From Acrocarpospora macrocephala (GTDB lineage: Bacteria; Actinomycetota; Actinomycetes; Streptosporangiales; Streptosporangiaceae): DNA of 64,000 nt. The stretch lies in the NCBI RefSeq assembly GCF_009687865.1, contig NZ_BLAE01000016.1, forward strand, positions 62,001-126,000, given 5' to 3'. The position numbers were made by a program, and so were the translations under genes. The notes under the pieces are model-generated. The model did no database searches and was not told the DNA's origin. It saw only the letters and a list, made by a program, of their open reading frames with translations. Positions within the stretch are counted from its first letter, which is position 1; each line of letters starts with the position of its first letter. Below, piece by piece: positions 16,585 to 60,701 of this stretch.

Positions 16585-16601
16585 GTTACCTCAGGCATTA
16601 C
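16585..16601 (-). promoter_or_regulatory. Catabolic operator, site 1 (12-bp direct repeat)
   Basis: In the direction of transcription: GTAATGCCTGAGGTAAC, two RTAAY half-sites 12 bp apart, 46 nt before GTG 16538. It overlaps the end of the upstream flavoprotein gene and so suggests an internal promoter dividing the long leftward gene run in two. Confidence 0.65.
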
Positions 16602-17950
16602 CGGTCGGCCGCCGCCTGGCCCGCGAGCCGGCCGTAGACCAGGCAGCTCGTGATCGCGATGCCCTGGCCCGCATACTTGGCGCCCAAGGCGTTGCCGGTG
16701 ACCTCGCCGGCGGCGTACAGGCCGGGGATGGGGACGACGTCCCGCGCCAGCACCCGGCCGATGTGATCGATCTCCAGGCCGTGGCCGGTGATGAGCACCA
16801 CGGACGGCCGCAGCTCCGTCGCGTAGAAGGGCGGCTCGGCCACCGGCCTCAGGTGGTCGGCACTTTTGCCGTAGGCGTCGTCGTTCCCCTGGGCGCAGGC
16901 CTCGTTGTACGCCGCCACGGTGTGCCGCAGCGCCTCGACCGGCAGGCCGAGACCGGCTACGTCGTCGGCCTTGGTCACCCGGCCCGCGGCGATCTGGTCG
17001 GTCAGGGTCCGCGCCCAGGTGGTGGCCCCACGGGTCAGGCCGCCGACGGCGCTCGGCCAGTCGCGGACTCCGGCCTCGTCGAAGATCGCCCAGCAGCGTC
17101 CGCCACGCCCTCGCAGGACCTCACGGAATCCGGCCGGTGGCGCGGACTCGTCGACGAAACGGCGTCCGTGGTCATCGACCAGCAGGAGAGTGGGCGGCAG
17201 GTAAAGGTCCCCGACCGGGAAGGCGGGGTTCAGCCGGACCACCCCGCCACCACGGTCGGCGGTCGAGGCCCCCACGGCCTCGGCCATGCGCAGGCCGTCT
17301 CCCCGGCAGGTCAGCGCGGCGGGCGACCAGGCGTCGCCGTCCTGCCAGGCCGCGTCGGGGATGTAACGGTGGACGAGATCCCGCGCGTGAGCGAACCCAC
17401 CGGTGGCGAGCACGGTCGCCGACGCGGTGAAACGCTCGCCGCCCGCTTCGACGCCGACGACACGGCCGTGCTCGACGAGCAGCTTCTCCGCCCGGATACC
17501 GGTTCGAATGGCCACGTCCCGTTCCCGGCACGCCTTCAGCAGCGGCTCGACGATGCCCGCTCCCTGGCCCTCCGCCCGATGGGAACGAGGGAAGGGTTCC
17601 CGGCCCGCCCGGTACAGGCCGGCGACGGGGAACTGGACACCGTGACCGATGAGCCATTCGAGGGTGGGCGCGGCCTGGTGGCAGAGTTGCCGGGAGACGG
17701 CGTGGTCGATGTCCCAGTGGGAGACCGTGGTCAGGTGGTCGAAGAGACGCTCCGGACTGTCACCCGGAAACCCCGCAGCTTCCTGAACCGATGTTCCGGC
17801 CGCCATGAAACTGCCCGCCGACTGCGCTGTGGTGCCGCCCACCTGGTCGGCCGCCTCAATGACCAGCACCGACGAGGCGCCGTGTTCGCGGGCGCTCAAA
17901 GCTGCTGCCAGACCGGCACCTCCCCCGCCCAGGACGAGTACGGCGCTCAT
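16598..17950 (-). CDS. Second KstD/fumarate-reductase-like FAD oxidoreductase
   Basis: A 450-residue relative of the neighbouring gene product: VLVLGGGGAGLAAALSAREH (FAD), VGGTTAQSAGSFMAAG, ATVLATGGFAHA, and the C-terminal YAGQGIAITSCLVYGR. It is about 50 residues shorter than the product of 15042-16538. Tandem flavoproteins of this family occur where a ring or enoyl system is desaturated or reduced in separate steps; that is an inference here. The ATG overlaps the stop of the acyl-CoA synthetase gene by 4 nt. It closes the operon that starts at 24523. Confidence 0.82.
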   Translation of the reverse strand: MSAVLVLGGGGAGLAAALSAREHGASSVLVIEAADQVGGTTAQSAGSFMAAGTSVQEAAGFPGDSPERLFDHLTTVSHWDIDHAVSRQLCHQAAPTLEWLIGHGVQFPVAGLYRAGREPFPRSHRAEGQGAGIVEPLLKACRERDVAIRTGIRAEKLLVEHGRVVGVEAGGERFTASATVLATGGFAHARDLVHRYIPDAAWQDGDAWSPAALTCRGDGLRMAEAVGASTADRGGGVVRLNPAFPVGDLYLPPTLLLVDDHGRRFVDESAPPAGFREVLRGRGGRCWAIFDEAGVRDWPSAVGGLTRGATTWARTLTDQIAAGRVTKADDVAGLGLPVEALRHTVAAYNEACAQGNDDAYGKSADHLRPVAEPPFYATELRPSVVLITGHGLEIDHIGRVLARDVVPIPGLYAAGEVTGNALGAKYAGQGIAITSCLVYGRLAGQAAADR

Positions 17951-19506
17951 CGCCCGGCCACCGGGTACATCGCCCGGACCGCCCGCTTGTCGAACTTGCC
18001 CACCGACGTGAGCGGTACCGCGGCCACCCGGACGAAGTCATCGGGCAGCCACCACTTGGGGAAACGTGCCACAAGATGGGCGCGTAGCTCGTCGTCGGTC
18101 ACCTCGGCCGCCGGGACGATCACGGCGACTGGGCGTTCGGTCCACCGGGGATGCGGCACCCCTACGACACACGCCGACACGACGGCCGGGTGGTCCATGA
18201 GCGCGTTCTCCAGATCGACCGTGGAGATCCACTCGCCGCCACTCTTCACCAGGTCAGCGATCCGGTCCACGATCTTGACGTAACCTTCGGCATCCACATT
18301 CACGACGTCACCGGTGCGGTACCAGCCGTCCACGAAGGCGGTCGCACTCCGTGGATCGTCGCCGTAGCCCTCGGCCACCCACGGCCCCCGCAACCAGAGC
18401 TCACCGGGCGTCGCCCCATCGCGGGGCACCTCCGCCCCGGACTCGTCGCGAACCGACATGCGCAGGCCGGGGACGAGCGTGCCCTGGCGCAGCCGCCGGT
18501 CCGGTCCGCCGCGCAGGTGCGACTTGGTCCTCCCGACGAGCACGAGCGGCGTCGACTCGGTCATGCCGTAGGAGTGCACGAGCGGCACATCCAGCTCGTC
18601 GGCCAGGCCGAGCAGGGCGGGCGGCAGCGGCGCGCCACCGGACACCAGCATGCGCAGGTCCGGCAGGGGGATCCCGCGCAGGTGCTCCAGAACGCCGAAC
18701 CACACGGTCGGCACGGCCGCACCGAATGTGACCCGCTCCTCGACGATCAGCCGAGCCAGGTCCTCCGGGGACGGTGCCGGTCCTGGCAGCACGATCCCGG
18801 CGCCGAGCCAGACCGCCGCGAACGGGATGCCCCACGCGTTGACGTGGAACATCGGCACCACCGGCAGCACGGTGTCGGCCTCCGACAACGCCCAGGTGTC
18901 GGCCATCGCCAGCGCCATCGAGTGCAGGTAGATCGCGCGGTGCGAGTACACGACGGGCTTGGGCCGCCCGGTCGTCGCCGACGAGTAACAGGTCGCGGCC
19001 GGTTCCGTCTCCGCCAGTTCGGGCATCGGGAACGGCGTGTCCGGGGCGTCGCCGAGCAGCCGGTCGTAGAGCAGCCAACCCTCCCCCGCCTCCGGTGGAA
19101 GCTCATCGCCGAGCACCACCACAGAACGCACGTCCGGCGCGTCCCGAAGGGCCTGCGCGAGCAGCCCGGCCTGGTCCGGATCGACGAAGACGACCACATC
19201 CCCCGCGTGCCGGAGGATCTCGCCGATCTGCCCGCCGGTCAGCCGCAGGTTGACGGTGTGCAGCACGGCCCCGCTGGAGGGCACCGCGAAGTACAGCTCA
19301 AGGTGCCGGTGACCGTTCCAGGCCAGCGTGGCGACACGTTGCCCGCGCCGCACCCCCAGCCGGTCCAGCACGTGCGCGAGCCGATGGACCCGCGCGGTGA
19401 AGTCGGTGTACGTGATGCGCTCCGCACCGCTGACCACGACCCGGTCAGGGAACAGGTCGGCGGCCCGGTCGAGCAACCGCGTGACGGTCAACTGGTCGGC
19501 GTCCAT
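17947..19506 (-). CDS. AMP-forming acyl-CoA synthetase (ANL superfamily)
   Basis: A 519-residue adenylate-forming ligase. The ATP-binding loop reads YSSATTGRPKPVVYSH, the A5 motif YGMTESTP, and the hinge/A8 region GYVKIVDRIADLVKSGGEWIS. The catalytic Lys lies in the final GKFDKRAVR. It makes an acyl-CoA from a carboxylic acid, ATP and CoA in two steps. Medium- or aryl-acid substrates are common for this length. It follows the LLM oxidoreductase with one shared base (TGATG). In context it would activate an acid released by aldehyde oxidation or ring cleavage. Confidence 0.9.
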   Translation of the reverse strand: MDADQLTVTRLLDRAADLFPDRVVVSGAERITYTDFTARVHRLAHVLDRLGVRRGQRVATLAWNGHRHLELYFAVPSSGAVLHTVNLRLTGGQIGEILRHAGDVVVFVDPDQAGLLAQALRDAPDVRSVVVLGDELPPEAGEGWLLYDRLLGDAPDTPFPMPELAETEPAATCYSSATTGRPKPVVYSHRAIYLHSMALAMADTWALSEADTVLPVVPMFHVNAWGIPFAAVWLGAGIVLPGPAPSPEDLARLIVEERVTFGAAVPTVWFGVLEHLRGIPLPDLRMLVSGGAPLPPALLGLADELDVPLVHSYGMTESTPLVLVGRTKSHLRGGPDRRLRQGTLVPGLRMSVRDESGAEVPRDGATPGELWLRGPWVAEGYGDDPRSATAFVDGWYRTGDVVNVDAEGYVKIVDRIADLVKSGGEWISTVDLENALMDHPAVVSACVVGVPHPRWTERPVAVIVPAAEVTDDELRAHLVARFPKWWLPDDFVRVAAVPLTSVGKFDKRAVRAMYPVAGR

Positions 19507-24523: not shown

Positions 24524-24572
24524 CTACAACCTCCAAGGTCAAGAAGTCCCGTGGCAATCGTCCCCAGAGCCC

Positions 24573-24589
24573 GTTACGCGGGGCGTGAT
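24573..24589 (-). promoter_or_regulatory. Catabolic operator, site 2 (degenerate)
   Basis: Reads ATCACGCCCCGCGTAAC in the direction of transcription, 49 nt before GTG 24523. The first half-site departs from RTAAY (ATCAC), but spacing, orientation and the following G are kept. This is the weakest of the thirteen copies. Confidence 0.45.
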
Positions 24590-26018: not shown

Positions 26019-27128
26019 TCACGAGTCGAAGGTGATTACACTGCGGGCGACCTCGGCGTGGTCGAGGGCCTCGAACGCCTCGGCGAACCCGGACAGAGGC
26101 AGCCGCTTGCCGATCAGCGGATCGAGGAGGAGACGGCCGGAGGAGTACAGCTCCGCCAGCCGTGGGATGTCGCGCTGCGGGATGTTGCTGCCGCCCCGGC
26201 AGCCGACTAGGCGGCGCTCCATCATCAACGCCTCCCGGCGGGCCGGGATGATCGCCCCGGGTGGGGGCGCGCCGACCATGACACACATGCCGCCGACCCG
26301 GGTCAGCCCGAGGCACTGTGCGACCAGATCGCCGTTGCCGACGACCTCGAAGGCGTAGTCGACACCGTCCGGGATGACGGCTCTGACCCCTTCCTCCAGA
26401 GAGGTCGAGGTGACGTCGATGACGTGCGTCGCACCCATCTGCTGGGCGAGAGTGAGCTTCGACGCCTGGGTGTCGGCGGCGATGATCGTGGTGGCACCGG
26501 CCAGCCTCGCCCCCTGGACGGCGTTGAGCCCGACTCCACCGCACCCGACGACCAGAGCTGTGTCGCCGACCGATACTCCGGCGGTGTTCACGACCGCCCC
26601 GAATCCGGTGGTCACCCCGCAGCCCACGAGGCACAAAGCGTGCAACGCGATGTCGGCGGGCACCCGGACAGCCTGTTCCGCGCGCACATTGGTGTACTCC
26701 GACAGCGTGCCCAGGCCCATGAGCGGGAAGAGTTGGTCCTCCCCGGATCGGAACCGGGTCATACCGTCGGAACGGACGCCCATCGTGTTGAGCCGGCGAG
26801 ACTCCCCGACACAGTGGTGGAAGTCGCCGCGCACGCACTGGCGGCACGCCCGGCACGGCACGTAGAGCGCCAGGACCACATGGTCCCCGGGGGCGAGCGT
26901 CGTCACCCCGGCGCCGACCTCCACAACCACGCCCGCGCCCTCGTGCCCGAGCACACTGGGGTACCTCGCGACCGCGCTGCGGCCGTGCACGGCATGTCCC
27001 TCTGACCCACACACCCCGGAGGCGGCGAGCCGTACCAACACTTCCCCGGGGCCAGGGTCTGCGACCGTGACCGTTTCCAGGACGGGTGCTCTTCCAGGTT
27101 CGCGCAGGATGAGCGCTGTTGACTGCAT
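26019..27128 (-). CDS. Zinc-dependent alcohol dehydrogenase (class III-like MDR)
   Basis: A 369-residue medium-chain dehydrogenase. Catalytic zinc ligands lie in SGVCGSEGHAVHG and LGHEGAGVVVEV; the four structural-zinc Cys are in PCRACRQCVRGDFHHC; the NAD-binding motif is ALVVGCGGVGLNAVQGA. The length and GCGVTTGFGAVVNTA segment match the class III/benzyl-alcohol-type enzymes. The ATG has GGAGG at a good distance. With the ALDH downstream it would oxidise a primary alcohol, such as a P450 product, to an acid. 132 nt without a motif separate it from the truncated homologue upstream. Confidence 0.9.
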   Translation of the reverse strand: MQSTALILREPGRAPVLETVTVADPGPGEVLVRLAASGVCGSEGHAVHGRSAVARYPSVLGHEGAGVVVEVGAGVTTLAPGDHVVLALYVPCRACRQCVRGDFHHCVGESRRLNTMGVRSDGMTRFRSGEDQLFPLMGLGTLSEYTNVRAEQAVRVPADIALHALCLVGCGVTTGFGAVVNTAGVSVGDTALVVGCGGVGLNAVQGARLAGATTIIAADTQASKLTLAQQMGATHVIDVTSTSLEEGVRAVIPDGVDYAFEVVGNGDLVAQCLGLTRVGGMCVMVGAPPPGAIIPARREALMMERRLVGCRGGSNIPQRDIPRLAELYSSGRLLLDPLIGKRLPLSGFAEAFEALDHAEVARSVITFDS

Positions 27129-27260
27129 GGGATCCTCCAGGTCGAAAGAACAGAGTGATGGCTGGCCTCGGCCCGCTCCCGATCGGCACCGCTCGTCGGG
27201 CGGCACGGCGGCGACGCGACCCTGCTGCGCGTGGCCAGGCTTTCCACGACAACCACCTGC

Positions 27261-27677
27261 TCACATCACGAGTACAGGCTTGACGATCCGCCCCGCGTTC
27301 ATGTCGTCCGCCGCCTGCTGGATCTGGTCGAAGGGATAGGTTTTGACAAGCTGTTCGACGGGGAACCGGCCGCGCCGCCATTGGCGCATCAGCATCGGCA
27401 GGAACGTCTGCGGCACCGCGTCACCCTCAACCAGGCCCCGCACCTTCCTGCCGATCAGCAACTGCATCAGGTCGGCCTCAAACGTGGTCCCCGCCGGTGC
27501 CGTGCCGATCAGCGCGAGCGAGCCCTCCGAGGTCAGCGCCATGAGGCGGCAGATGCCGGCGGCGCGGACCCGGACGAGGATCTCGTCCGGCCTCAGCGGG
27601 GGAAGCGTGATGTCGGTGAGGGCGAACGGTGCCCCACGTTCGGGCGTGACCGCGGCGATGGCCCGGGTTCCTTCCAT
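27261..27677 (-). CDS. Internally deleted zinc alcohol dehydrogenase (138 residues)
   Basis: The N-terminal 43 residues (FALTDITLPPLRPDEILVRV, RAAGIC) are those of an MDR alcohol dehydrogenase up to the first zinc Cys. The next residues (LMALTSEGSLALIGTAPAG) belong to the end of the Rossmann domain, and the remainder (YPFDQIQQAADDMNAGRIVK) is the normal C-terminus. About 230 residues, including the other zinc ligands and the NAD site, are missing, yet the frame is intact. It is either a deletion remnant still translated within the operon or a relic. A dehydrogenase activity is not expected. Confidence 0.7.
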   Translation of the reverse strand: MEGTRAIAAVTPERGAPFALTDITLPPLRPDEILVRVRAAGICRLMALTSEGSLALIGTAPAGTTFEADLMQLLIGRKVRGLVEGDAVPQTFLPMLMRQWRRGRFPVEQLVKTYPFDQIQQAADDMNAGRIVKPVLVM

Positions 27678-30317: not shown

Positions 30318-30373
30318 CCTGCCTCCTTGCAGTTCCCGCAACGTGACATGTCCGGGAGCCTGGACGGCGCCGT

Positions 30374-30390
30374 GTTACGACGCCCGTTAT
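30374..30390 (-). promoter_or_regulatory. Catabolic operator, site 3
   Basis: ATAACGGGCGTCGTAAC in the direction of transcription; half-sites 12 bp apart, 56 nt before the GTG of the ALDH gene. It sits in the short gap after the NuoF-like gene stop, so it separates two operons read in the same direction. Confidence 0.68.
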
Positions 30391-35803: not shown

Positions 35804-35827
35804 CGGTGGAATCCTTCTTGGCTGCCG

Positions 35828-36821: not shown

Positions 36822-36921
36822 ATGACAGTCCTCCCTGATCGTCGCGGGCTGACCGGGCAGCCTGACGCGCAGAAGGTCCACAGCCCCGGTCGCCGCGCCG
36901 TGGCCGAGCGCGATTGGCTTG

Positions 36922-42135: not shown

Positions 42136-42443
42136 TCCGCGCCGAACGGGTCTACGTCGTCGAACTGCGCCCGACCCCCGCGCGATACGAGAAGTCCGCC
42201 GAGTTCGAGCGCATCCTGCCCGCCCACCTGGACTGGGTCGCCCGGCGCCAGCACGACGGCGTGCTGCTGGCCACCGGGCCGTTCGTCGACGAGGAGACCG
42301 GTCAGAACACCGGCCACGGCCTGTTCCTGTTCCGGCTGCCGACGGCGGCGGAGGTGGCCGCCGTTGTGGCGGAGGATCCGCAGGTGATCGGCGGCTTCAA
42401 GGAGCCCGAGATCCGCCCGTGGCTGATGCGGACGATCCTGTGA
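42132..42443 (+). CDS. YCII-domain protein
   Basis: A 103-residue ferredoxin-like alpha/beta-barrel protein of the YCII family: YVVELRPTPARYEKSAEFER, LPAHLDWVARRQHDGVLLATGPF, and the GLFLFRLPTAAEVAAVV segment. The His-Asp pair in AHLDW is the usual active-site pair of this family, which contains dehydrochlorinase-like and isomerase-like members. ATGA overlaps on both sides couple it to DUF35 and the next gene. Its reaction is unknown; it may handle a pathway intermediate. Confidence 0.72.
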   Translation: MIRAERVYVVELRPTPARYEKSAEFERILPAHLDWVARRQHDGVLLATGPFVDEETGQNTGHGLFLFRLPTAAEVAAVVAEDPQVIGGFKEPEIRPWLMRTIL

Positions 42444-42991: not shown

Positions 42992-43994
42992 GCACGGCCC
43001 GCCCGACGATCTCGCCCCGATCCAGGCGCCGGTAGACCTCCGGCGCCTGTTCGAGCGGGAACGTCTCCACCTCGGCCCCGATCAGACCGGCTCTGGCGAG
43101 TTCCACCACCTCATGCAGGTCCGGAATCGAGCCCATGCCGGTGACCGCCACCGAGCACTCCTTGGGGATCGAGGCGAAGGTCAGCGGCAGGGTGCCCATC
43201 GCGGCGCCGACCAGGGTCAGGTGACCGAAGATCCGGGCCGAGGCGGCGGCGAAGGCCAGCGTCGCATCGGTGCCCACGAAGTCGATGACCAGCGAGGCCC
43301 CTTCGCCCTTCGTCAGCTCACGGACACCCTCGATCGCGTCGGCTCCCGCGAGGAACGCGTCCGCGCCGAGACGACGGGCCAGCGCGAGTTTCCGCTCGTC
43401 GGTGTCCACGGCGATGATCCGGGCCGTGGTGATGGCCCGCGCGATTTGCACCGCCATGTGCCCCAGCCCGCCCACGCCGATGACCAGAACGGTGTGCCCC
43501 GGCCCTACGAGCACCGGCGACGAGCGCCGGACGGCGTGATAGGCGGTCAGGCCGGCATCCGCCAGCGGCCCGGCGGTGCGCGGATCGAGCCCGTCCAGCG
43601 GCACGAGATACCGCTCCGACGGTACGAGCTGGTATTCCGCCAGACCGCCGTCCGCGCCCATTCCGGCCATCGGGCCTCGGTCGACGCACCAGTGGTCGAG
43701 TCCCTGGCGGCAGCGTACGCACCGGCCGCACGCCCACGAGATGTAGACGAGCACGGGGTCACCGACCGCGAGCCGCCCGGCGCCGGGGCCGACCGCCGCC
43801 ACCCATCCGGCGGTCTCGTGGCCCAGGGTGAAGGGCACCGGGCCCCCGGCGGACCTGTTCATGATGGACAGATCCGAGTGGCACGCGCCGACCCCGCCGA
43901 CCCGGACCAGCACCTCGCTGGGTCCCGGTTCCGGTACCGGCACGTCGACCAGTTCGGGCGGCTTGCCCCACTCCAGCAGGCGGAACGCTCTCAC
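42972..43994 (-). CDS. Zinc-dependent alcohol dehydrogenase (MDR family)
   Basis: A 340-residue MDR dehydrogenase: [12 protein letters not shown] (zinc Cys), [13 protein letters not shown] (zinc His-Glu), four structural Cys in [15 protein letters not shown], and [19 protein letters not shown] for NAD. The GTG start overlaps the P450 stop (GTGA), so alcohol made by the P450 could be oxidised directly. The frame extends far upstream in antisense to the ALDH gene, but that extension is not coding. It converges on the gene ending at 42991. Confidence 0.9.
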
Positions 43995-45169: not shown

Positions 45170-45224
45170 CGCCTGCTCCGTTCCGTGGAATCCGGCTTTC
45201 CGCCACCCACGGTGGCCGGGCCGC

Positions 45225-45241
45225 ATTACCGTCCCCGTTAA
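45225..45241 (-). promoter_or_regulatory. Catabolic operator, site 7 (leftward, shares a half-site)
   Basis: TTAACGGGGACGGTAAT in the direction of transcription, 55 nt before the ATG of the P450 gene. Its outer half-site is part of the palindrome GTTAAC (45237-45242) that also serves site 8. Confidence 0.65.
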
Positions 45242-45254
45242 CGCGGACCGTAAC
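45238..45254 (+). promoter_or_regulatory. Catabolic operator, site 8 (rightward, shares a half-site)
   Basis: TTAACGCGGACCGTAAC on the plus strand, 24 nt before ATG 45279 of the ALDH gene. Overlaps site 7 through the GTTAAC palindrome, making a three-half-site divergent operator. Confidence 0.65.
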
Positions 45255-45278
45255 GACGCGCCCGCGACCCTTGCCGGC

Positions 45279-46682: not shown

Positions 46683-47786
46683 CTACTTCCCGGCGAGCAC
46701 GTCCTGGATGTAGGTCGAGTCGAACATCTGCTCCACGGTGAAGTCGGTGTCGTACTTGAGCGTGTCGGGGATCTGACGGAAGTACTTCTGCACCTCGACC
46801 ACGCTCTCCTGGAGCGGGAACTCCGCGTCGAAGTACGGCGAGGGCAGTTTGGCGAGCTGGTCGTCGGCCATCTCCAGCGACTGGCTGAGCGCGGCCCTCA
46901 CCTCGGCGTTGTCCTTCAGGAAGTCCCCCTGGAGGTAGGTCCGGGTGGTCCGGGCCATCGCCCGCACGAACGCCCGCGCGGCGTCGTCGCCCTTCTCCTT
47001 CATGGTCGAGCCGAGCGTGTAGCCGAAGCCGGGGGTCAGCTCGTAGGCGCCGTCGAGGAACTGGCAGCAGGCGTCGCCGACCAACGCCTGCTGGAACGGG
47101 GTGATCACCTGGCCGACCAGGGCCGCGCCGTTCTTCACCGCGACCGCGATCTCACTGACCGCGAGGCTCTCGAACTGGAGCTCGTCCAGCGTCACCTGAT
47201 CGGCGCCGGGGAGTGTCTGGATGTACTTCCACAGGTACGAGGACGCGACGGTGGGCTTGCCGCCCGAGGTGTAGATCTTCACGCCCTTGAAGTCGGTGGC
47301 CTGGAGTTGCCCGTCGTCGCCCAGCAGCTTCTTGTTGATCCAGAAGCCGTGGCTGCTGCCCTCCCGCTGGCCGGAACCCGGGAAGATCCACTTCTGGTCG
47401 GGCTGCCCGGCCAGCACATTGAACGACCCGGCGGTGTACGACTGCTGGGCGATGTCCAGCTCGCCCTGGGTGACCAGCAGGATGATCTCCTGCGGCCCCA
47501 TCTCGGTGATCTGGACGTCGAGGTTCTCCTTCTCGAACTCGCCGAGCGCCTTGGCGACGTACACGGGCGCGAACGAGGCGGTCTTCGCGCCGAGCCCGAC
47601 CTTGAGCGTGACCCGCTCGGGGAGCGGCTTGGGCGCGAGCGGGCCCGACTCGGTGGCGGCGGTCGTCGGTGGGGCGGCCCGGGTGCCGCCATCCTCGGTG
47701 GCGCCCCCGCAGGACGCTAGCAGTAGTGCCGCGAGGCAGATCGTTCCCCCGATGGCCAGGCGGCCGGGTCTGGTGGTGTGTTTCAT
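46683..47786 (-). CDS. ABC importer substrate-binding lipoprotein (NMT1/SsuA type), copy 2
   Basis: A 367-residue lipoprotein: signal ICLAALLLASC (lipobox), a Thr/Ala linker, LKVGLGAKTASFAPVYVAKALG and KENLDVQITEMGP. It is clearly paralogous to the product of 36922-38010 and shares the segments ARTTRTYLQGDF and a Cys-Cys pair (GDACCQFLDGAYE). Two binding proteins with one permease/ATPase set suggest two related ligands, or a high/low affinity pair. ATG 47786 with AGGGAG upstream. Monocistronic. Confidence 0.85.
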   Translation of the reverse strand: MKHTTRPGRLAIGGTICLAALLLASCGGATEDGGTRAAPPTTAATESGPLAPKPLPERVTLKVGLGAKTASFAPVYVAKALGEFEKENLDVQITEMGPQEIILLVTQGELDIAQQSYTAGSFNVLAGQPDQKWIFPGSGQREGSSHGFWINKKLLGDDGQLQATDFKGVKIYTSGGKPTVASSYLWKYIQTLPGADQVTLDELQFESLAVSEIAVAVKNGAALVGQVITPFQQALVGDACCQFLDGAYELTPGFGYTLGSTMKEKGDDAARAFVRAMARTTRTYLQGDFLKDNAEVRAALSQSLEMADDQLAKLPSPYFDAEFPLQESVVEVQKYFRQIPDTLKYDTDFTVEQMFDSTYIQDVLAGK

Positions 47787-47844
47787 ACGCGCGTTCTCCC
47801 TACGACATGCCGGTTCGGCGTGCCGGAAAGGTCGCGCGCGCGTC

Positions 47845-47861
47845 GTTAACCGCGTCATTAC
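47845..47861 (-). promoter_or_regulatory. Catabolic operator, site 9 (leftward)
   Basis: GTAATGACGCGGTTAAC in the direction of transcription, 58 nt before the ATG of the second binding lipoprotein gene; paired with site 10 in the divergent region. Confidence 0.65.
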
Positions 47862-47871: not shown

Positions 47872-47888
47872 ATAACGGCCCGGCTAAT
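47872..47888 (+). promoter_or_regulatory. Catabolic operator, site 10 (rightward)
   Basis: ATAACGGCCCGGCTAAT on the plus strand, 24 nt before GTG 47913 of the CoA-transferase pair. The second half-site begins with C instead of a purine. Confidence 0.58.
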
Positions 47889-47912
47889 GCCCCGGAGGCG
47901 AGACTCGGGCGC

Positions 47913-50269: not shown

Positions 50270-53200
50270 TCACGCCTGCTCGTGTACGGCCAGAGCCGGG
50301 GACGACATGCTGAGCAGTTGCCGCGCGTACCCCGGCTCCAGCCCCAGCTCCTTGAGGGCGGCCGCCGCCCGCCGGTAGACCGCCAGGCACGAGCTCTCAC
50401 TCCCCACCGACCGCTCCACCGTCAGCAGCAACCGGTAGGCCGGGTCGCAGAACCGGTTGAGCGCGAGCAGCGCCTCGCACTCCTCCCTGGCCGCGATCGG
50501 GTCACCCTGCTCGATCAGCAGCGTGACCAGCTCCAGCCGGGCCTCCTCCTCCATGATCTCGATCTGCTGGCGGCGTTCCTCGGCCCACTGGAGGCTGGAA
50601 CTCTCCAGGTACCTGCCGTTGATCAGGGCGAGCGCCTCACCGAGCCGCTGAACCCGTTCCGGTCCCGGCACCACGCTCGTGGTGTGCAGCAGTTGCTCGA
50701 ACCGCACGTCCACCGCCTCGATCCACACGCCGTCCTGCACGGCGAGCTGGTTGCGGCCCTGGCGGACCAGGGCTATTCCCGTCGCCCGGGTGAACTTGTG
50801 GATGATCTGCCGGAAGTGGTTGCCGCCGTTGCGCTGGCTCGCCTCGGGAAAGAGCTCCTGCTGGAGTTTCGTACGGTCCACCCCGCGCGGATGCAGCGCC
50901 AGATACGCGGCCAACTCGATGATCTTGATGCGTCCGACGTTCAGCCGGTCACCGTTGAACAGGATGTCGCGCTCCAGCCCGAACGGCTGCACGCTCAGAT
51001 AGATCGGCTGGTCCGCACGCGGCTCACTGACCAGGCGGGTGAGCCCCACCGCCGACGCCGAGAAGAACAACCGGCGCCACCGGGTGTCGGCCGGGTCCCT
51101 GGCGATCTCCCGTTCGAGGATCGTGGGGAACATCCGGATCACTTCGAGCAGCCCGTTGAAACTGCCGATCAGCGACGCCGTGTGATAGGCCAGCTTGGCC
51201 ATCTCCCCGGATTCGTGCGTGTCCCCGGCCTGGTGCGCGGCCTCGCTCAGACAGGCCGCCGCCGCCGGAAGGAACAACCGCCGCTGCGCCGTCTGCATCG
51301 ACCGGACGGCCTCACGCAGGATCAACTGGGCCTCGCGGGTACGACCGGCCCGGAGGTAGGCGAGCCCGAGGAACGCCTGCGCCCATTCGAGGATCGCGGT
51401 CTCGCCCCGGTTCGACAGCCCGTTGATGACGCCGTCGAGCATCGCCACCGCGTCGTCGGCCCGGTCGAGGTTGAGCAGGATGTAGGCGGTGTAGACCTCG
51501 TACACGGCGGTCAGGGAGAAGTGGGTCTTGCGGCTGTCCTCGACCGCACGTCTGGCGGTCGCCAGCGCCTCGCCCATCCGTCCTTCCGACATGAGCATGA
51601 AGGACTCGATGAACCGCGACTGCGGCCGGGTACGCAGCTCCGGCGGCACCCGCCGCCACAGCGCCCTGGCCTTGGCCTGCTCGCCGCGCAACACCGGCGA
51701 GATGATCACGTTCGGGTTGATCACGGCCGTGTCGCCATCCTGCGGCACGAGCCGGTCCAGCTCCGACAACCGGCCCTGGAGGATCAGCCCCCAGGTGATG
51801 TGGCGTTCGACATCCGCCCAGTCCGACCCGAGGACCGGGGCCGCGGGCGTGACGCCGGTGGCGGCGTCGAGCATGAACGAAACCGCCTCGGCGCGGTAGT
51901 CACCCCGGTACTTGCGCAGCAGACGTTGCGCCACCCGCGGTTCGGCCTGCATAGCCCACGCGACCGTCGCCAAGAGCCCCGGGTCGGCGTCCGTGGCCTC
52001 ACGCAGCCCGCCGCGCTGGTCCAGCCGCCGGATCAGGTCGATGACGTGCTCGAAACGCCGGGTGCCGTGCAGCGCCCTGATCGAGGCGGCGAGCAGCAGC
52101 GGGTTGGCGAGCACGATGTCCGGCCCGAGCACCTCGACCCACCGGTGCAGCGTGGGCCAGTCGGCGCGGCCGTAGAGCGAGAAGGCCGCCTGGGCGGCGA
52201 CCTGACCGGCCGCGTCCATATCCCCGGAGCCGAGCAGCAACTCGGTCGCCTCCTCGAACCGGCCGACCGACGCGAGGTAGGTCGCGTACCGCCGTACGAC
52301 AAGCGGATGGCGCGCGGGCGCGCGGGCGAGAAGCTGCTCGGCCAGGAAGGTACGGAACAACGAGTGGTATGTGATCGCCGCGCCCGTCGACGTGGTGGCC
52401 GGCAGGTGCTGCGCCGACAACCAGTCCCACAGGGCGTGCCCCTCACCTCCGGCCAGGGCGGTCGCGACCTCGCGTGTCATCACCGCCGCCACCGAGGAGT
52501 CCAGCAGGAAAGCCCGCTCCCGCTCCGGGAGCCGGTCGAGCAGCTGGGTCCCGAGGTAGGCGACGAAGTCCTTCACCTCGGGCATGCCCGCGACCGTGGG
52601 AAACCCGGACCGCGCGCCCAGGATGACCCCGGCCGCCCAGCCTCCGGTCGCGTCGTGCAGCAGGTCCGCCTCGTCGGAGTGGCCCACGAGGTCGCGTACC
52701 TCGTCGCGGGTGAAGTTCAGCACCGACTCGGTGATGACCGACATCGAGCCCTCGATCAGCCCCCGGCGCAGCGGCCAGGCGACGTCGGTGCGGCTCAGCA
52801 ACATCACTTGCGTCTCGGCGGGGGCGTACTCCAGGAAGACACCCAGGGCGGAGGCGGCCTCCTCGGAGGCGTAGACGTGGCTGCACTCGTCGAGCACCAG
52901 CAGGCGGCGGTCGGGCGGCAGGCTGTCGCCCAGGATGGCGGCGACCTCGTCGGCCGTGTGGTCGGCGCGCAGCGCGTCCCGGACGGCTGTGGTCCTGGCG
53001 CCGTCCGCCCCGTCGAGGCAGGCGGCCAGCCCGACCAGGAGCCGGGGAGCCGAGCCGTCGCTTCGGTCGAGCGAGAGCCAGGCGAGGGGAATGTCACCGG
53101 CCCGCGCGTAGAGCTGGGCCTGAATGGTCTTGCCGGCCCCACCGGCCGCCACCACCGCGAGGCACCGGACATCGGCGAAACGCCCGCGATATTCGTCGTT

Positions 53201-53296
53201 CACCCGGGCTCGGGACACAGGGGCGGGAGGAACCCCTGGAGGAGCGAGCCGGTGATTGAGGATGAACTGGTCAGGATTAGAAGAAACCGACGTCAT
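50270..53296 (-). CDS. Large STAND ATPase transcription regulator with C-terminal BTAD (SARP-like) domain, 1
   Basis: A 1008-residue regulator. An N-terminal P-loop ATPase of the MalT/STAND kind (Walker A AAGGAGKT at 51-57, Walker B RLLVLDECSHV near 135) is followed by TPR-like helical repeats in the middle. Near residue 780 there is an OmpR-like winged helix (NVGRIKIIELAAYLALHP ... GGNHFRQIIHKF) and then a BTAD helical domain to the end, the DNA-binding pair of SARP regulators. Such proteins act as ligand- and ATP-controlled activators. Paralogue at 57699-60581. Its own upstream region (53297-53466) is unusually AT-rich and lacks the 12-bp repeat operator. Likely controls the island. Confidence 0.82.
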   Translation of the reverse strand: MTSVSSNPDQFILNHRLAPPGVPPAPVSRARVNDEYRGRFADVRCLAVVAAGGAGKTIQAQLYARAGDIPLAWLSLDRSDGSAPRLLVGLAACLDGADGARTTAVRDALRADHTADEVAAILGDSLPPDRRLLVLDECSHVYASEEAASALGVFLEYAPAETQVMLLSRTDVAWPLRRGLIEGSMSVITESVLNFTRDEVRDLVGHSDEADLLHDATGGWAAGVILGARSGFPTVAGMPEVKDFVAYLGTQLLDRLPERERAFLLDSSVAAVMTREVATALAGGEGHALWDWLSAQHLPATTSTGAAITYHSLFRTFLAEQLLARAPARHPLVVRRYATYLASVGRFEEATELLLGSGDMDAAGQVAAQAAFSLYGRADWPTLHRWVEVLGPDIVLANPLLLAASIRALHGTRRFEHVIDLIRRLDQRGGLREATDADPGLLATVAWAMQAEPRVAQRLLRKYRGDYRAEAVSFMLDAATGVTPAAPVLGSDWADVERHITWGLILQGRLSELDRLVPQDGDTAVINPNVIISPVLRGEQAKARALWRRVPPELRTRPQSRFIESFMLMSEGRMGEALATARRAVEDSRKTHFSLTAVYEVYTAYILLNLDRADDAVAMLDGVINGLSNRGETAILEWAQAFLGLAYLRAGRTREAQLILREAVRSMQTAQRRLFLPAAAACLSEAAHQAGDTHESGEMAKLAYHTASLIGSFNGLLEVIRMFPTILEREIARDPADTRWRRLFFSASAVGLTRLVSEPRADQPIYLSVQPFGLERDILFNGDRLNVGRIKIIELAAYLALHPRGVDRTKLQQELFPEASQRNGGNHFRQIIHKFTRATGIALVRQGRNQLAVQDGVWIEAVDVRFEQLLHTTSVVPGPERVQRLGEALALINGRYLESSSLQWAEERRQQIEIMEEEARLELVTLLIEQGDPIAAREECEALLALNRFCDPAYRLLLTVERSVGSESSCLAVYRRAAAALKELGLEPGYARQLLSMSSPALAVHEQA

Positions 53297-53466
53297 GCTT
53301 GCTCCTCATGGCCTGGGCAGGAGCCCTACGTCCTTTTCGGCCGCGAGTGGAGCGGTGACACCACGAGAAGAAACCGCCCCACCACCCCTCGTTTTAACAC
53401 ATATGACACACTTTAGACATATAAGAACGTATTGTGATGCTATCGTGTTATTTGTCGTACTTATCG

Positions 53467-54333
53467 TTAGCGCGGTTTCCACGGGACGAGTAGCCGCCCG
53501 ATCGCTTTGACGCCCATCTGGAAAATGACACCCATGAGCGCGGCCACGATGATGCCGACGTACATACGCTCGGTGTCGAAGACCTGCCAGGAACTCCAGA
53601 TCACGAATCCGAGTCCGTCGGACCCCTGGATCATCTCGATGGCGATGAGCACCAGCACGGCCGTTCCCGACCCCAGTCGCAGCGCGACGAAGATCTCCGG
53701 AAGCACGGCGGGCACGATCAGGTGCCGAAAGGTCTGCATTCGGGTGGCCCCGAACGAGCGGATGGGCTCGTGCATGGCGTCCGAGACTCCCAGCACGGCC
53801 GCGCTGGTGGAGATGCAGGTGATGAAGAAGACCGCCAGGGCGGTCATGATGATCTTCGGCGCCGGGCCGAGCCCGAACACCAGCAGCATGAACGGGAACA
53901 GTGCCAGCTTCGGCACGGTGTAGAGCGCCGAGATGATCGGTTCGAGGGCGACCCGGATGGACCGGACCGTTCCGAAGATCAGGCCGAGCGCCACTCCGGC
54001 GATCGCCCCGGCGAGGTACCCGGTCAGCAACCGCTGGACGGTGACCCCCAGGTGCTCGGGCAGCAGCCCTGACTGGATGGTCTCCCACGCCTTGGCGAAC
54101 ACGCTCGCGGGAGCGGGCCAGAACTGCTCGTCCAGCACCCCGAGCGCGGTGGTGAGCTGCCAGAGCGACAACACCAGCACGGGGGTGCCCCACCGGAGCA
54201 GGTTGTCCTTGATACGGCGTCGCCGGGCGAACCGGACCCGGTCCGTCTCGACGGCACCCGGAACACGTGTGACGACCTGCCCGCCGGAGGACGCCCGGAG
54301 GCCCACCGAAGGCGCGGTCTGGTTGATGCTCAT
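53467..54333 (-). CDS. ABC importer permease (SsuC/TauC type)
   Basis: A 288-residue inner-membrane protein with about six hydrophobic segments and the permease loop GVSDAMHEPIRSFGATRMQTF. The region ALYTVPKLALFPFMLLVFG is typical of nitrate/sulfonate/taurine importers. The N-terminal 45 residues are a cytoplasmic extension. It overlaps the ATPase gene (ATGA). It should form the import channel used by the two NMT1-type lipoproteins, which are encoded elsewhere in the island. Confidence 0.9.
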   Translation of the reverse strand: MSINQTAPSVGLRASSGGQVVTRVPGAVETDRVRFARRRRIKDNLLRWGTPVLVLSLWQLTTALGVLDEQFWPAPASVFAKAWETIQSGLLPEHLGVTVQRLLTGYLAGAIAGVALGLIFGTVRSIRVALEPIISALYTVPKLALFPFMLLVFGLGPAPKIIMTALAVFFITCISTSAAVLGVSDAMHEPIRSFGATRMQTFRHLIVPAVLPEIFVALRLGSGTAVLVLIAIEMIQGSDGLGFVIWSSWQVFDTERMYVGIIVAALMGVIFQMGVKAIGRLLVPWKPR

Positions 54334-55157: not shown

Positions 55158-56375
55158 TCACTTCTCATTACGGCGGCCGTTACCGCCCGGGCGGGAGGTG
55201 GCGATTCCCACGACACCGACCAGAAGCACCGCGGCGGCCCCGAGGCCGAACCCCCAGCGTGGGTCGGCCAGCTCCGCGAGCACGCCCATAATCGGCCCGC
55301 CGATCGGCGCGCTGCCGAGCATGACCACGAACCACAAGGCCGCGACCCGACCCCGCATACCCGGCTCCGAGGCGGCCTGGATGGTGCTCATCGCGGTCGT
55401 GGCCAGCACGGTCGTCATCGCACCCAGCACAGCCAGGGCGGCCACCGCCAGCGGAAGCGTCGGCGCGGCAGCGCAGAGCGCCAGCGCGAGGCCCATGAAG
55501 ACGGCACGCACCGCGATGGCCCGCCGCCCGGTCCGCAACACGCGGGTGCCCACCAGCCCTCCGGCGATGGCGCCCAGTCCCATGGCGGCGGTCATCATCC
55601 CGAGGGTCGCGGCGTCACCGTCGAAGGTGCGCTGAGCCAGCAACGGCAGCAGAACCTGATGCTGGTACGCCAGCACACTGATGACCGCCATCGATACGAG
55701 CGGCCACCGGATGGCGGGCGTACGCCACGCGTAACGCACCCCCGCCCGGATCTCCCCCGGCTGCGAATCGGCCCGGCCGGAGGACACCTCCACCAGCGTG
55801 ATGGCCCGGAGCGCCACCGCCATGAACAACCGGGTCCCGGCCGCCACGGCGAAACACCCCGTCGTCTCCCCCGACGCCGCGATCAGGGCTCCGGCCAGCG
55901 CTGGCCCGATCACCCGGGCCGAGTTGAAGGCCAGCGCGTTCAGTGAGTACGACCGGGGCAGCTTCTCCTCGTCGGCGAGTTCGGGCACCAGCGACATCCG
56001 CGCCGGATTCTCGACCGCTGTCACACACCCGAACACGAACGCGAGGCAGAAGGCCAGCGGGAGCGAGGCGTTCCCGGTGGCCGTCGCCCACCCGAGGCTC
56101 CCGGTACAGACGGCCCCCGCGACCTGCGCCGCCATCAGCACCCGCCGCTTGGGCAGCCGGTCGGCCAGCAACCCGGCGGCCGGCCCGAGCAGCAGCGCCG
56201 GCAGGAACTGGAGAGCGATCGCCGCCCCGATCGCCCGCCCGTCCCCCGACAGGGTCAGCACCAGCCACGCGAACGCGGTGGTGTGCGTCCAGAAGCCGGT
56301 AGTGGACACGGCGTGTCCCACCAGATAGATCCACAACCAGGTCCACGCCTTTCCGGACGGGACCGGCCCCGTCAC
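55158..56375 (-). CDS. MFS exporter (EntS-like)
   Basis: A 405-residue 12-helix transporter of the group that includes enterobactin exporter EntS: LVGHAVSTTGFWTHTTAFAW, LLADRLPKRRVL (loop 2-3 motif), ARMSLVPELADEEKLPRSY, FNSARVIGPALAGAL. The GTG start overlaps the stop of the amidohydrolase gene (GTGA). It may remove a toxic intermediate or an end product. The stop precedes the ABC ATPase gene; its 3' end contains operator site 11. Confidence 0.82.
   Translation of the reverse strand: MTGPVPSGKAWTWLWIYLVGHAVSTTGFWTHTTAFAWLVLTLSGDGRAIGAAIALQFLPALLLGPAAGLLADRLPKRRVLMAAQVAGAVCTGSLGWATATGNASLPLAFCLAFVFGCVTAVENPARMSLVPELADEEKLPRSYSLNALAFNSARVIGPALAGALIAASGETTGCFAVAAGTRLFMAVALRAITLVEVSSGRADSQPGEIRAGVRYAWRTPAIRWPLVSMAVISVLAYQHQVLLPLLAQRTFDGDAATLGMMTAAMGLGAIAGGLVGTRVLRTGRRAIAVRAVFMGLALALCAAAPTLPLAVAALAVLGAMTTVLATTAMSTIQAASEPGMRGRVAALWFVVMLGSAPIGGPIMGVLAELADPRWGFGLGAAAVLLVGVVGIATSRPGGNGRRNEK
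55167..55183 (-). promoter_or_regulatory. Catabolic operator, site 11
   Basis: GTAACGGCGGCCGTAAT in the direction of transcription, 45 nt before the ATG of the ABC ATPase gene. It lies inside the last codons of the MFS gene, so coding and control overlap. Confidence 0.68.
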
Positions 56376-57634: not shown

Positions 57635-57685
57635 CGCGTGTCCCTTCGCAACTGGTACAGATACCCGTCATCGTCGGGAGCCGCT

Positions 57686-57702
57686 GTTACCAGCGCCGTT
57701 AT
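57686..57702 (-). promoter_or_regulatory. Catabolic operator, site 12
   Basis: ATAACGGCGCTGGTAAC in the direction of transcription, 51 nt before the ATG of the amidohydrolase gene. Its outer end overlaps the stop codon of the second regulator gene. Confidence 0.68.
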
Positions 57703-60581
57703 GTGATCGAACCGCTCGCGCCGAGTTCCAGGAACCGCCGCGTGTCCCCAGGCCGCAGGCCCAGCTCCCCGAGGGCGCTCGCCGCTCGCCGGTAGGCCGT
57801 CTCCTCGGCACCGGCGGTTTTCTCTATGTACGCCAGGAGCCGGTAGGCCGGATCGCAGTACCGGTTGCGCCCGAGCACGTCCTCACTCTCCTGGCGCGCT
57901 TCCTCGAGACGACCACCCTCGATGAGCAACCGCACCACTTCGAGCTGGGCCTCCTCGCGTACCACCTCGAGATGTTCCCGGCGCTCTACGACCCAGGTTA
58001 GTTCGCTGCGGCCGAGGTACTGGCCCGTCACCAGGGACAGGGCCGCCTGGAGCTGGGGCAGCCGCGCGTTGACGTGCAGGCCCCGGGCGAAGGCGGCCTC
58101 CTGCTCGAACAACTGGTCGGCCGCGTAGATGGACGCGTCTCCGGGCACCTTGACCCAGCCGTCGTCGGTCGAGACCAGCCGGATGCCGGTGGCGTCGCGG
58201 AACTTGTGCATGATCTGGCGGAAGTGGTTGCCGCCCGTCCCCGCGTCGGCCTCGGGGAGCAGCAGGCGTTGCAACTCCGTGCGCACCACCCCGCCGGGAT
58301 GCAACGCCAGGCAGGCGACAAGTTCGATGACTTTGAGCCGGCCTACGCCCAGCGCGCGGCCGTCGAGCACCAGATCGGGCCTGCCGCCGAAGGTCTGGAC
58401 GTGCAACTCCACCATGGCGGGCCCCAGCCTGCGTCGTTTCGGGACGGCTGGCGCCGACGGGCAGACCACCAGACGGCGCCAGCGGGTGTCCTGACGATCG
58501 CGGGCCTGCTCCCGCCGCTGGATGTCGGGGTAACACCACGCGGCGCGTACCAGACCGAGGAAGAAACCGGTCGAGGACGCGACGTCGTAGGCCATCGCCG
58601 CCGCGCGGTGGGACGCATCGAGGTCACCGCACCGCGCGTGCGCCTCGGCGAGGCAGGCCGCCGCGAGCGGCAACTGGAGGTGGCGGCCCGCCCGGTGCAT
58701 GCCGTCGACCGCCTCGACCAGGAGGGCACGGGCCTTTTCGTTGCGGCCGGCCTCCAGATAGGACCAGCCGAGAAGCATGCGGCCCCACTCCAGGACGGCG
58801 GCGTCGTCGCCGCGGGCCCAGCGACGGACCCGATCCTCCAGGAGCGCCCGCGCCGACTCGGCGCGGTGATGCCTCATCAGCGCCATCGCGGTCATCGCCT
58901 CGTAATACGGCGTGAGGAAGGAACCCATCCGGCGTCCCTCGGCAACGGTGTCCTCCAGGAGTTCCAGGGCGTGGTCGCGGTCGCCTTCCGCGTAGACGAG
59001 CAGGCTCTCCGCGAAGCGGGCATGGGCGGTGACCCTGACCTCGTGGGGGATGCGCGACCACATCCGGCGGGCCAGGGGGAGTCGCCCGGTGTAGGCGTAG
59101 GCGAGGACGACGTCCGGGTTGTACAGGGGGCGGCCATCCCCCGGGGCCAGCCGGGTGATGTCGCCGATGCGTCCCTGGACGAACAATGCCCAGCTCAACG
59201 ACTGTTCGTGGAGGTCCCAGTCGTCGCCCTGCGGCGGTTCGGCCGGGGACTCGCCGCAGGACACCTCCACCAGGAACCGGACCGCCTCCTTGCGATGGTC
59301 ACCGCCGTGCAGGTCGAGTAGCCGAGTCGCCGCCGCCGCGTCCGGGAGCATCACCGCTGCAGCCGAGGCCACCAGCCCGGCGTCCTGCGCCAGCACCGCG
59401 GGCAGACGGCCTCCGGCCTCGACCGTCCGGACCAGAAAACGCGCCCGTGCGAACTGGTGGGCGGCGTTCAACGCGTGGATTCGCGCGCCCAGCAGGATGT
59501 TGCTCGCCCCGGTCGCGGCCTCTCCCAGAGCGTTGGTGAGTTTCTCCAGCGTGCGCCATTCGCGCCGGGCCTGCAGCTCTGGCACCGCCTGCTCGGCCAC
59601 GCGGACGGCCTCGGCCTGGTCGTTCTCGGCCAGGAGCAGTTCGACGGCCTCCACGGCCTGGCCCATCCAGCCGAGGTAGGTGGCGTAGCGGCGTACCAGC
59701 TCCGTGTGGTGTCCCGGCCGGCGGCTCAGCCGCTGGTAGCGCAGCGCGGCCCGCAGGACGGGCGTGAACGCCAGCTCGGCTCCTCTGACGTTGATCGTCG
59801 GGAGGTGCCGCCGGGTGAGCCGGTCCCAGGCGTCCTCCATCGGTTCACCGCACAACACCTCGGCCAGATGCGCGGTCGCCCTCGGGGCGACGGAGGCGGC
59901 CAGCAGGACCCGCTGCTCGTCCTCGGGGAGCTGGTCGAGCACCTCGGACGCCAGGTATTCCGCCACCGCGGCCTCCGCCTCGGCCGAGGCGGCCTGCGTG
60001 TGCAGCAGGACACCCAGCGCCCATCCGCCTGTGGCGCGGCTGATCTCCTCGGCCTGGGACGCGTCGCCGCCGCGTGCCGTGGCGAAGGTTCTGATCTCGT
60101 CGACCGACATGGCCAGGTCACTGTCGCGGATGGCAAGGTGTGTCAGCTCCTGGGGCGGCTCGTCGCGAGTTAGCAGTATGACCCGCCATCCCCTTCGGAC
60201 GGACATCCGGAGATCCGCGAGCAGGGTGAGCGTGGCGGGCTCACCGAAGAGGAGATGACAGTCGTCCACCACGATCAGGCCGGGCCCCTCCCCCTGGAGC
60301 GCCGCCGCGAACAGCTCGGCGACATACGCGGACGTGGGCCGTTCTGGCCCCAGCCGCACCCAGGACACCGGGGCCGTCGTCGAGCGCGCGAACGACTCGG
60401 CCTGGGCGGACTTGCCGGCGCCCGCACCGGCGACCACCCACAGGACCCCTCCGGTCTGGTTGAGCGACACCGCGAACAGCTCGTCCAGGCGGGGACGGGG
60501 GATCAGGCGCCCGGATACGAGTCGGGTCCCGAGGTCGGTCCCATGGTGAACTTTGACCAGGTTTCCTATGCTTTCTTTCAT
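57699..60581 (-). CDS. Large STAND ATPase transcription regulator with C-terminal BTAD (SARP-like) domain, 2
   Basis: A 960-residue paralogue of the regulator at 50270-53296. Walker A AGAGAGKS (51-58), Walker B GLIVVDDCHLLFG (about 100-112), central helical repeats, then the winged helix GVGRLKVIELVACLALHP ... GGNHFRQIMHKF and a BTAD domain ending near residue 950. The DNA-contact region is strikingly alike in the two proteins, so they may bind the same element, possibly with different ligands through the divergent ATPase/TPR parts. ATG 60581. No RTAAY repeat precedes it in its own direction; the divergent copy (site 13) faces the hydratase gene. Confidence 0.82.
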   Translation of the reverse strand: MKESIGNLVKVHHGTDLGTRLVSGRLIPRPRLDELFAVSLNQTGGVLWVVAGAGAGKSAQAESFARSTTAPVSWVRLGPERPTSAYVAELFAAALQGEGPGLIVVDDCHLLFGEPATLTLLADLRMSVRRGWRVILLTRDEPPQELTHLAIRDSDLAMSVDEIRTFATARGGDASQAEEISRATGGWALGVLLHTQAASAEAEAAVAEYLASEVLDQLPEDEQRVLLAASVAPRATAHLAEVLCGEPMEDAWDRLTRRHLPTINVRGAELAFTPVLRAALRYQRLSRRPGHHTELVRRYATYLGWMGQAVEAVELLLAENDQAEAVRVAEQAVPELQARREWRTLEKLTNALGEAATGASNILLGARIHALNAAHQFARARFLVRTVEAGGRLPAVLAQDAGLVASAAAVMLPDAAAATRLLDLHGGDHRKEAVRFLVEVSCGESPAEPPQGDDWDLHEQSLSWALFVQGRIGDITRLAPGDGRPLYNPDVVLAYAYTGRLPLARRMWSRIPHEVRVTAHARFAESLLVYAEGDRDHALELLEDTVAEGRRMGSFLTPYYEAMTAMALMRHHRAESARALLEDRVRRWARGDDAAVLEWGRMLLGWSYLEAGRNEKARALLVEAVDGMHRAGRHLQLPLAAACLAEAHARCGDLDASHRAAAMAYDVASSTGFFLGLVRAAWCYPDIQRREQARDRQDTRWRRLVVCPSAPAVPKRRRLGPAMVELHVQTFGGRPDLVLDGRALGVGRLKVIELVACLALHPGGVVRTELQRLLLPEADAGTGGNHFRQIMHKFRDATGIRLVSTDDGWVKVPGDASIYAADQLFEQEAAFARGLHVNARLPQLQAALSLVTGQYLGRSELTWVVERREHLEVVREEAQLEVVRLLIEGGRLEEARQESEDVLGRNRYCDPAYRLLAYIEKTAGAEETAYRRAASALGELGLRPGDTRRFLELGASGSIT

Positions 60582-60684
60582 ATTGCACCTAATAGACTAA
60601 TTGCTACAATCCGTCACTACTTGTGCACTAATCTGCCGCTCATGTTACCGACGCCACAATCTCCCCGACCACCCCCGAAGGGTG

Positions 60685-60701
60685 GTAACGCCGGTGGTAA
60701 C
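60685..60701 (+). promoter_or_regulatory. Catabolic operator, site 13
   Basis: GTAACGCCGGTGGTAAC on the plus strand, a perfect half-site repeat, 48 nt before TTG 60750 of the hydratase-like gene. It is the outermost copy at the right end of the island. Confidence 0.7.

Follow-up and report, generated by a model that had tools for sequence, protein, structure and literature searches.

We analysed a 64,000-nucleotide stretch of the Acrocarpospora macrocephala genome (contig NZ_BLAE01000016.1, positions 62,001 to 126,000; hereafter the window), which holds a catabolic gene island, two large paralogous regulator genes and 13 copies of a short direct repeat that we discuss here as an operator. Pfam searches showed the island to encode FAD dehydrogenases, P450s, aldehyde dehydrogenases (ALDH), hydrolases, a DHDPS-family enzyme, a ring-hydroxylating dioxygenase pair with a NuoF-like partner, class III CoA-transferases, an acyl-CoA synthetase-like protein, a thiolase-like protein with a ChsH2/DUF35-like partner, and ABC and MFS transporters. 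The regulators and the repeats are listed in Table 1.

Table 1. Regulators and operator sites, with coordinates given as positions in the window.
Feature	Coordinates	Strand	Genes served or remark
Regulator 1	50270-53296	-	MalT-like STAND ATPase, TPR and C-terminal SARP (winged helix and BTAD)
Regulator 2	57699-60581	-	Paralogue, 37% identical
Regulator 2 C-terminal SARP domain	57702-58439	-	AlphaFold2 model; GGNHFRQI on third helix of winged helix
Operator GTAAT-N7-GTAAC (16585-16601), -10 GACAGT (16569-16574)	16569-16601	-	By position: FAD dehydrogenase, ferredoxin reductase, P450, CoA-transferase and SDR genes, leftward
Operator ATCAC-N7-GTAAC, -10 GACGAT	24557-24589	-	Ornithine-cyclodeaminase-like, ALDH, SDR, glyoxalase, LLM, acyl-CoA ligase and FAD genes
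Operator ATAAC-N7-GTAAC, -10 CAGGCT	30357-30390	-	ALDH / P450 genes
Operator GTAAC-N7-GTAAC, -10 AAGGAT	35811-35844	-	DHDPS-family, hydrolase, ring-hydroxylating dioxygenase and NuoF-like genes; start codon at 24 nt
Operator TTAAT-N7-GTAAC, -10 CACACT	38043-38076	-	Gene 36922-38010 and LLM gene 35841-36881
Operator GTAAC-N7-GTAAT, -10 CATCCT	38097-38130	+	Acyl-CoA synthetase, thiolase-like and ChsH2/DUF35-like genes
Operator TTAAC-N7-GTAAT, -10 CACCGT	45209-45241	-	P450 43991-45169
Operator TTAAC-N7-GTAAC, -10 GACCCT	45238-45271	+	ALDH; start codon at 24 nt
Operator GTAAT-N7-TTAAC, -10 GACCTT	47828-47861	-	Gene ~46683-47787, by eye a substrate-binding protein
Operator ATAAC-N7-CTAAT, -10 GAGACT	47872-47905	+	Two class III CoA-transferases; start codon at 24 nt
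Operator GTAAC-N7-GTAAT	55167-55183	-	ABC ATPase and (by eye) permease; sole window site without A-N3-T at nt 12/13
Operator ATAAC-N7-GTAAC, -10 GACGAT	57670-57702	-	Amidohydrolase and MFS genes
Operator GTAAC-N7-GTAAC, -10 GAGCAT	60685-60717	+	Small gene, TTG start near 60750

Each of the 13 coordinates given for the repeat in the initial annotation of this DNA proved, on reading the sequence, to hold two TAAY-type half-sites with their starts 12 bp apart. The consensus proposed there, RTAAYG-N6-RTAAY, held in part: the half-site pair and the 12-bp period recur at every site, but as written it fits seven of the 13, the other six deviating at one base each (the first half-site is ATCAC at 24573 and opens with T at 38060, 45225 and 45238; the second is TTAAC at 47845 and CTAAT at 47872). 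NTAAYG-N6-NTAAY describes the sites better, fitting 12 of them, the exception being 24573 (ATCAC, one further change). The remaining particulars of the annotation were borne out: G follows the first half-site in all 13, their orientation relative to the downstream gene is identical, plausible start codons lie at 24 nt (three sites) or at 45-58 nt (ten sites), and none of the sites faces either regulator gene. Judged by position, each heads a different transcription unit. Three divergent site pairs occur in the window, and at one of them the operators 45225 (-) and 45238 (+) overlap, their common half-site being the palindrome GTTAAC (45237-45242); because these opposite operators overlap and share that half-site, the divergent P450 and ALDH promoters at 45225-45254 may be mutually exclusive.

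Direct TAAY pairs are present 12 times in the window at a spacing of 12, and no other spacing between 5 and 60 has more than one; in 100 Markov simulations the pairs at spacing 12 averaged 0.08 and never exceeded 1. The exact pattern has 11 matches in the 12.1-Mb genome, with seven inside a 44-kb interval in which it is thereby enriched ~480-fold. It is this concentration that is unusual and not the genome-wide total, as G017 has 12 exact matches on 12 contigs and the others of 59 related genomes up to nine. The annotation had named a similar density of the motif in unrelated coding DNA as the outcome that would speak against a regulon; the scan did not give that outcome, as four of the 11 exact matches lie outside the island, across 12.06 Mb. 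Next to the window, the 32 kb to the left and the 9 kb to the right contain no 12-bp TAAY pair.

At 12 of the 13 window sites the second half-site is followed, 10-11 nt on, by a weak -10 element (nAnnnT). This A-N3-T rule was first noted on 19 sites, the 13 of the window and six in two relatives described below. When every two-base combination (gaps 1-8, positions 1-79) was scanned, A-N3-T starting at nt 12 or 13 ranked first for the window (12/13, p 6e-15 per test), first over all 19 sites (17/19) and second in the six relatives' sites alone (5/6). At sites unused for discovery it was present in 23 of 25, against 4% expected (9/10 on contig G427:C569, 8/8 in G752 and 6/7 in G746). The hexamers are poor, mostly [G/C]ANNNT, and the gap from operator to hexamer is 10-11 nt from the 5-mer half-site or 8-9 nt from the 7-mer, in line with the SARP rule of ~8 bp. 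With the T as -7, the half-sites fall at about -39 to -35 and -27 to -23, or one base further upstream if the A is at nt 13. Because the -10 stands at a fixed gap, and this held at the new sites, we take the element to serve as the activator portion of promoters in which no -35 is evident. We also counted possible starts, i.e., every ATG or GTG opening at least 150 codons rather than annotated starts, 10-79 nt past 45 sites (a set without loci L053-L056). There were 55, of which 10 lie at 22-25 nt (five at exactly 24), 27 at 45-61 nt and the remaining 18 elsewhere in that range. As the start codons of the first group are ~24 nt downstream of the operators, their position suggests leaderless mRNAs, and that of the second group transcripts with a leader.

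Operator and -10 together (TAACGN7TAAYN{11,12}ANNNT) have nine matches in the home genome, eight of them in the island. Read from the table of background counts, no other genome of at least 5 Mb has more than three matches of this full pattern; some genomes of 1-2 Mb reach seven, and the reversed-pattern control is likewise high there. Exact-word enumeration returned as its top result TAAC at period 12 with the -10 (p about 2e-35). The four exact sites outside the island (L008-L011) were considered as regulon members and are treated as background because all four lack A-N3-T at nt 8-17. We likewise set aside, as unrelated, a group of 12-bp GTAACG repeats in G022; these arrays (L030 6371-6660, G022:C3), which mimic the operator, lie inside an open reading frame beside phage-like replication open reading frames, as read from the translations.

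The modelled C-terminal domain of regulator 2 matches in fold AfsR in its transcription complexes, and also EmbR, and it has the arrangement expected of a SARP, an OmpR-type winged helix followed by an all-helical BTAD. A search of solved structures by sequence gave a weak EmbR match amid ankyrin-like hits, and it was the fold comparison that decided. The regulators scored 79.7 and 32.2 bits against the MalT model NCBIfam NF003420 (cut-off 537), and a Walker A sequence is visible in the translations. Neither regulator matched the LuxR-type helix-turn-helix (GerE), the modelled C-terminus folding as SARP. The domain order is not that of AfsR (SARP, NOD/NB-ARC, TPR), the ATPase coming first and the SARP last.

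Both regulators were used in a peptide-pattern scan (two short patterns, not exhaustive) of 84,980 species genomes, which gave 392 candidate stretches, among them two relatives, one in a Mycobacterium and one in a Pseudonocardia metagenome bin. Both loci (L019 and L020) carry the element three times at period 12, and among spacings from 5 to 30 this is the only one with direct TAAY pairs. Homologs of island genes are present in each, i.e., a DHDPS-family protein (62% identity) and an aldehyde dehydrogenase (64%) in L019 and a CoA-transferase (58%) in L020, whose 7.4-kb contig carries the regulator, the CoA-transferase, a partial third island homolog, at least one further open reading frame and the three sites. 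A motif search of both relatives' genomes identified eight exact sites on another contig of the Pseudonocardia bin (G427:C569, loci L051/L052). This catabolic cluster, found from the motif alone, has ten 12-bp sites, and much of the island has homologs there, at identities reaching 72%. A regulator search in 390 genomes of one family gave 24 matches in 20 genomes and added two clade members, the loci of which have eight (G752) and seven (G746) sites at spacing 12 in catabolic clusters that for the most part resemble the island only distantly. A tree of 24 proteins recovers the clade as monophyletic (100/100), and the clade's members share GxN[HY]FRQI on the third helix of the DNA-binding domain. 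The element with its 12-bp period lies near all six classified clade members, in five genomes; the regulators beside the repeats are only about 28-48% identical, and TAAY, G and spacing are kept across sites while the spacer bases vary. Regulator 2 has only weak partial matches in the 59 related genomes, where motif matches are scattered. The partial matches in G248 and G289 cover the ATPase part only and stood outside the tree; around G248 there is no 12-bp pair.

A sister clade of STAND-TPR-SARP regulators (L026, L090-L102), for which we found no published name, occurs in about 18 of the 390 sampled genomes. It has the same domain order and carries mostly SYLRQ on the helix where the clade has GxN[HY]FRQI. 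The 14 sister loci stand for 15 of 22 sister-type matches (14 of the 21 from the 390-genome search, plus G263), and they lack the 12-bp element except for one stray copy without a -10; no 12-bp pair was found in the 5-6-kb loci of five other sister-type matches (including an unplaced partial match, G529). G752 holds both kinds of regulator, with eight sites at the clade member and none at the sister protein. The link between regulator and element is thus backed by the co-occurrence of the repeat with one clade and not with its sister, which favors the proposal in the initial annotation of an operator shared across the island for its BTAD regulators.

We consider it highly likely that the element serves as operator in an activator-dependent promoter and is bound by the island's STAND regulators through their C-terminal SARP domains. 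In the AfsR complex (PMC10936776), two SARP domains lie side by side on 11-bp repeats centered at -29.5 and replace the -35 element as the docking point of sigma region 4. By analogy, the simplest reading would be the AfsR mechanism on a 12-bp register, with two SARP domains bound side by side and head-to-tail, one per NTAACG half-site of the 12-bp repeats. The box, at about -39 to -16, would occupy the place of a -35, which sigma region 4 would normally recognize and which these promoters seemingly lack. The bound pair would then offer a docking surface for sigma and RNA polymerase (the 'sigma adaptation' shown for AfsR) and let the poor -10 open. Transcription would start ~23-25 nt past the operator, giving leaderless messages where the start codon is at 22-25 nt and a short leader elsewhere, and the N-terminal ATPase/TPR part may sense a pathway substrate and license DNA binding.

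Several observations count against this proposal. A-N3-T at nt 12/13 is missing from eight of 49 tabulated sites, these being one of the 13 in the window, three of six in the L019 genome (two of four on the regulator's contig), both stray sites of G427 (the genome of L020) and two of the 25 new sites, and at 35828 the -10 hexamer AAGGAT doubles as the Shine-Dalgarno sequence. The Pfam BTAD match in regulator 2 is weak (E 0.011, C-terminal segment). As the two relatives are metagenome bins, contigs may be mis-assigned. The AfsR dimer geometry is not exactly transferable because the period is 12, not 11, and we infer the binding, activation, sigma contact, leaderless start, ligand sensing and choice of acting paralogue.

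Alternatively, an unlinked transcription factor or an alternative sigma factor could use the element, with the STAND-SARP proteins acting elsewhere. Such a factor would fit the lack of sites facing either regulator gene, and the binding of the STAND-SARP proteins to the element is something we infer; nevertheless we regard this as unlikely, as the element tracks one clade in six of six cases and not the sister clade, the short L020 contig carries regulator and sites together, the 59 genomes with weak partial matches to regulator 2 have their motif matches scattered, and the distance from half-site to -10 fits published SARP promoters. In addition, no other DNA-binding family was matched among the scanned open reading frames of the island (those at 26019-27677, 42089-43990, 46683-47787 and 53306-54330 were left out). 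Less probable still is that the regulators repress and that the element blocks the promoter. The box does overlap the -35 region, where repressors also bind, but a poor -10 at a fixed gap of 10-11 nt suits an activator that contacts polymerase, whereas a repressor needs no fixed spacing, and the predicted fold matches AfsR within an activation complex. That the repeats are functionless copies, due to chance or to shared ancestry and spread with mobile DNA, would agree with the patchy distribution of the regulators but is strongly disfavoured and very improbable, given that TAAY, G and spacing persist beside such diverged regulators while the spacer varies, and given the result of the exact-word enumeration.

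The sister clade may have an operator of its own. Word searches over its 14 loci gave mostly periods of 9, 12, 21 and 24, which we attributed to codon repetition and shared coding sequence. Three 11-bp TAAY pairs in L091 prompted a check of a five-genome subclade (G263, G730, G541, G542 and G571), which has four TAAC-TAAC pairs at 11 bp and five TCAA-TAAC pairs at 22 bp, where simulations average 0.13 and 0.07, respectively, with GTCAA-N6-YTAAC-N6-YTAAC triplets in G730. These TAAC-core repeats (L091 3110, 5136 and 18316; L026 5406; also in L097 and L101) are a candidate SARP operator in the classical register, and none were found at the remaining sister loci examined. The result is post hoc and comes from few sites, most of them in G730, and A-N3-T is not constant in this subclade. 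It suggests, from sequence, that one protein family may read a TAAC core in both 11-bp and 12-bp registers.

With regard to the limits of the island, an integrase-core (rve_3) open reading frame at 6790-7536 on the left and transposase-like remnants seen by eye at ~61460-62010 on the right may mark its borders. Because the dihydropteroate-synthase-like and glycosyltransferase genes at 8306-10218, leftward of the catabolic genes, look chromosomal, the island proper probably begins near 10.5 kb and not at 16.6 kb. A tRNA-like 3' end noted by eye near 62.2 kb was unsupported, ARAGORN finding no tRNA gene, and Pfam gave no match for 60776-61352, downstream of the 60685 site. The segment 30396-33737 encodes the dioxygenase alpha and beta subunits and, after them, a NuoF-like protein that contains a ferredoxin domain and may be an unusual reductase; homologs of this trio lie together in L051.

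Our literature search found no paper describing a 12-bp SARP operator, none on regulators of catabolism under the name SARP and, judged by titles and abstract openings among the matches listed and by the AfsR passages, none with the order STAND-TPR-SARP. Published SARP repeats are spaced at 11 or 22 bp, the final repeat standing 8 bp away from the -10 (PMC10936776), and those of PimR (CGGCAAG) lie at 11 and 10 bp (PMC5930380). At the clade loci the period is 12, with no enrichment at 11 or 22. The description of the repeat as a distinct type in the initial annotation is therefore fair as that of a variant, but the 12-bp period is not outside all published ranges, since 4-15 nt is the spacer range that one review gives for SARPs (PMC10972967). 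A wider proposal, on which our confidence is evenly divided, is that these regulators form a separate SARP branch with inverted domain order and a promoter code of its own, NTAACG-N6-NTAAC-N10/11-nAnnnT. Its 12-bp register, beside an 11-bp one on an identical TAAC core in a sister branch, would demand an arrangement of protomers other than that in AfsR. The code would equip catabolic islands with a portable control module, frequently with leaderless transcripts and with back-to-back promoters that in one case share a half-site, and would be exact enough for finding unknown degradation clusters from DNA alone. Such a code, readable from sequence, finds regulon members including the cluster on another contig and predicts transcription starts and leaderless genes.

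Like AfsR, the island regulators have a winged-helix and BTAD fold (here predicted) with ATPase and TPR parts in the same protein, and direct repeats just upstream of a poor -10, the 3' heptamer being ~8-9 bp from it and the box centered near -28. They differ from it in the 12-bp period, in the C-terminal rather than N-terminal SARP domain, in their catabolic targets and in the half-site, NTAACG as opposed to CGTT(T/C)ATCGNN (PMC10972967). How a SARP pair that spans 11-bp repeats in AfsR adapts to 12, apparently within one family, is a structural question raised by this comparison. The SARP-LAL regulators PimR, SanG and PolR likewise join a SARP domain to a LAL-type ATPase half and use direct heptamer repeats; however, PimR has its SARP first and the SARP-LAL targets are antibiotic genes (PMC5930380). 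MalT and the LAL activators (STAND ATPase with LuxR-type helix-turn-helix) may resemble the island regulators in the N-terminal half, where the MalT match is below cut-off, whereas the latter have a C-terminal SARP and no LuxR/GerE match. NpdR of Arthrobacter YC-RL1, and CphR/CphS of strain A6, are BTAD regulators inside an aromatic-degradation cluster (PMC6193132). DnrS of Thermus thermophilus, a large sensor-activator, ends in a BTAD and controls a mobile gene cluster unrelated to antibiotics, but it has an N-terminal GAF domain and a role in nitrate respiration (PMC5748679). BTAD regulators of catabolism and C-terminal BTADs are thus already known, and what appears to be new is the putative 12-bp SARP operator and the STAND-TPR-SARP order. 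In the SARP papers we found, these proteins figure as switches for antibiotic gene clusters; the branch described here appears to govern entire degradation islands.

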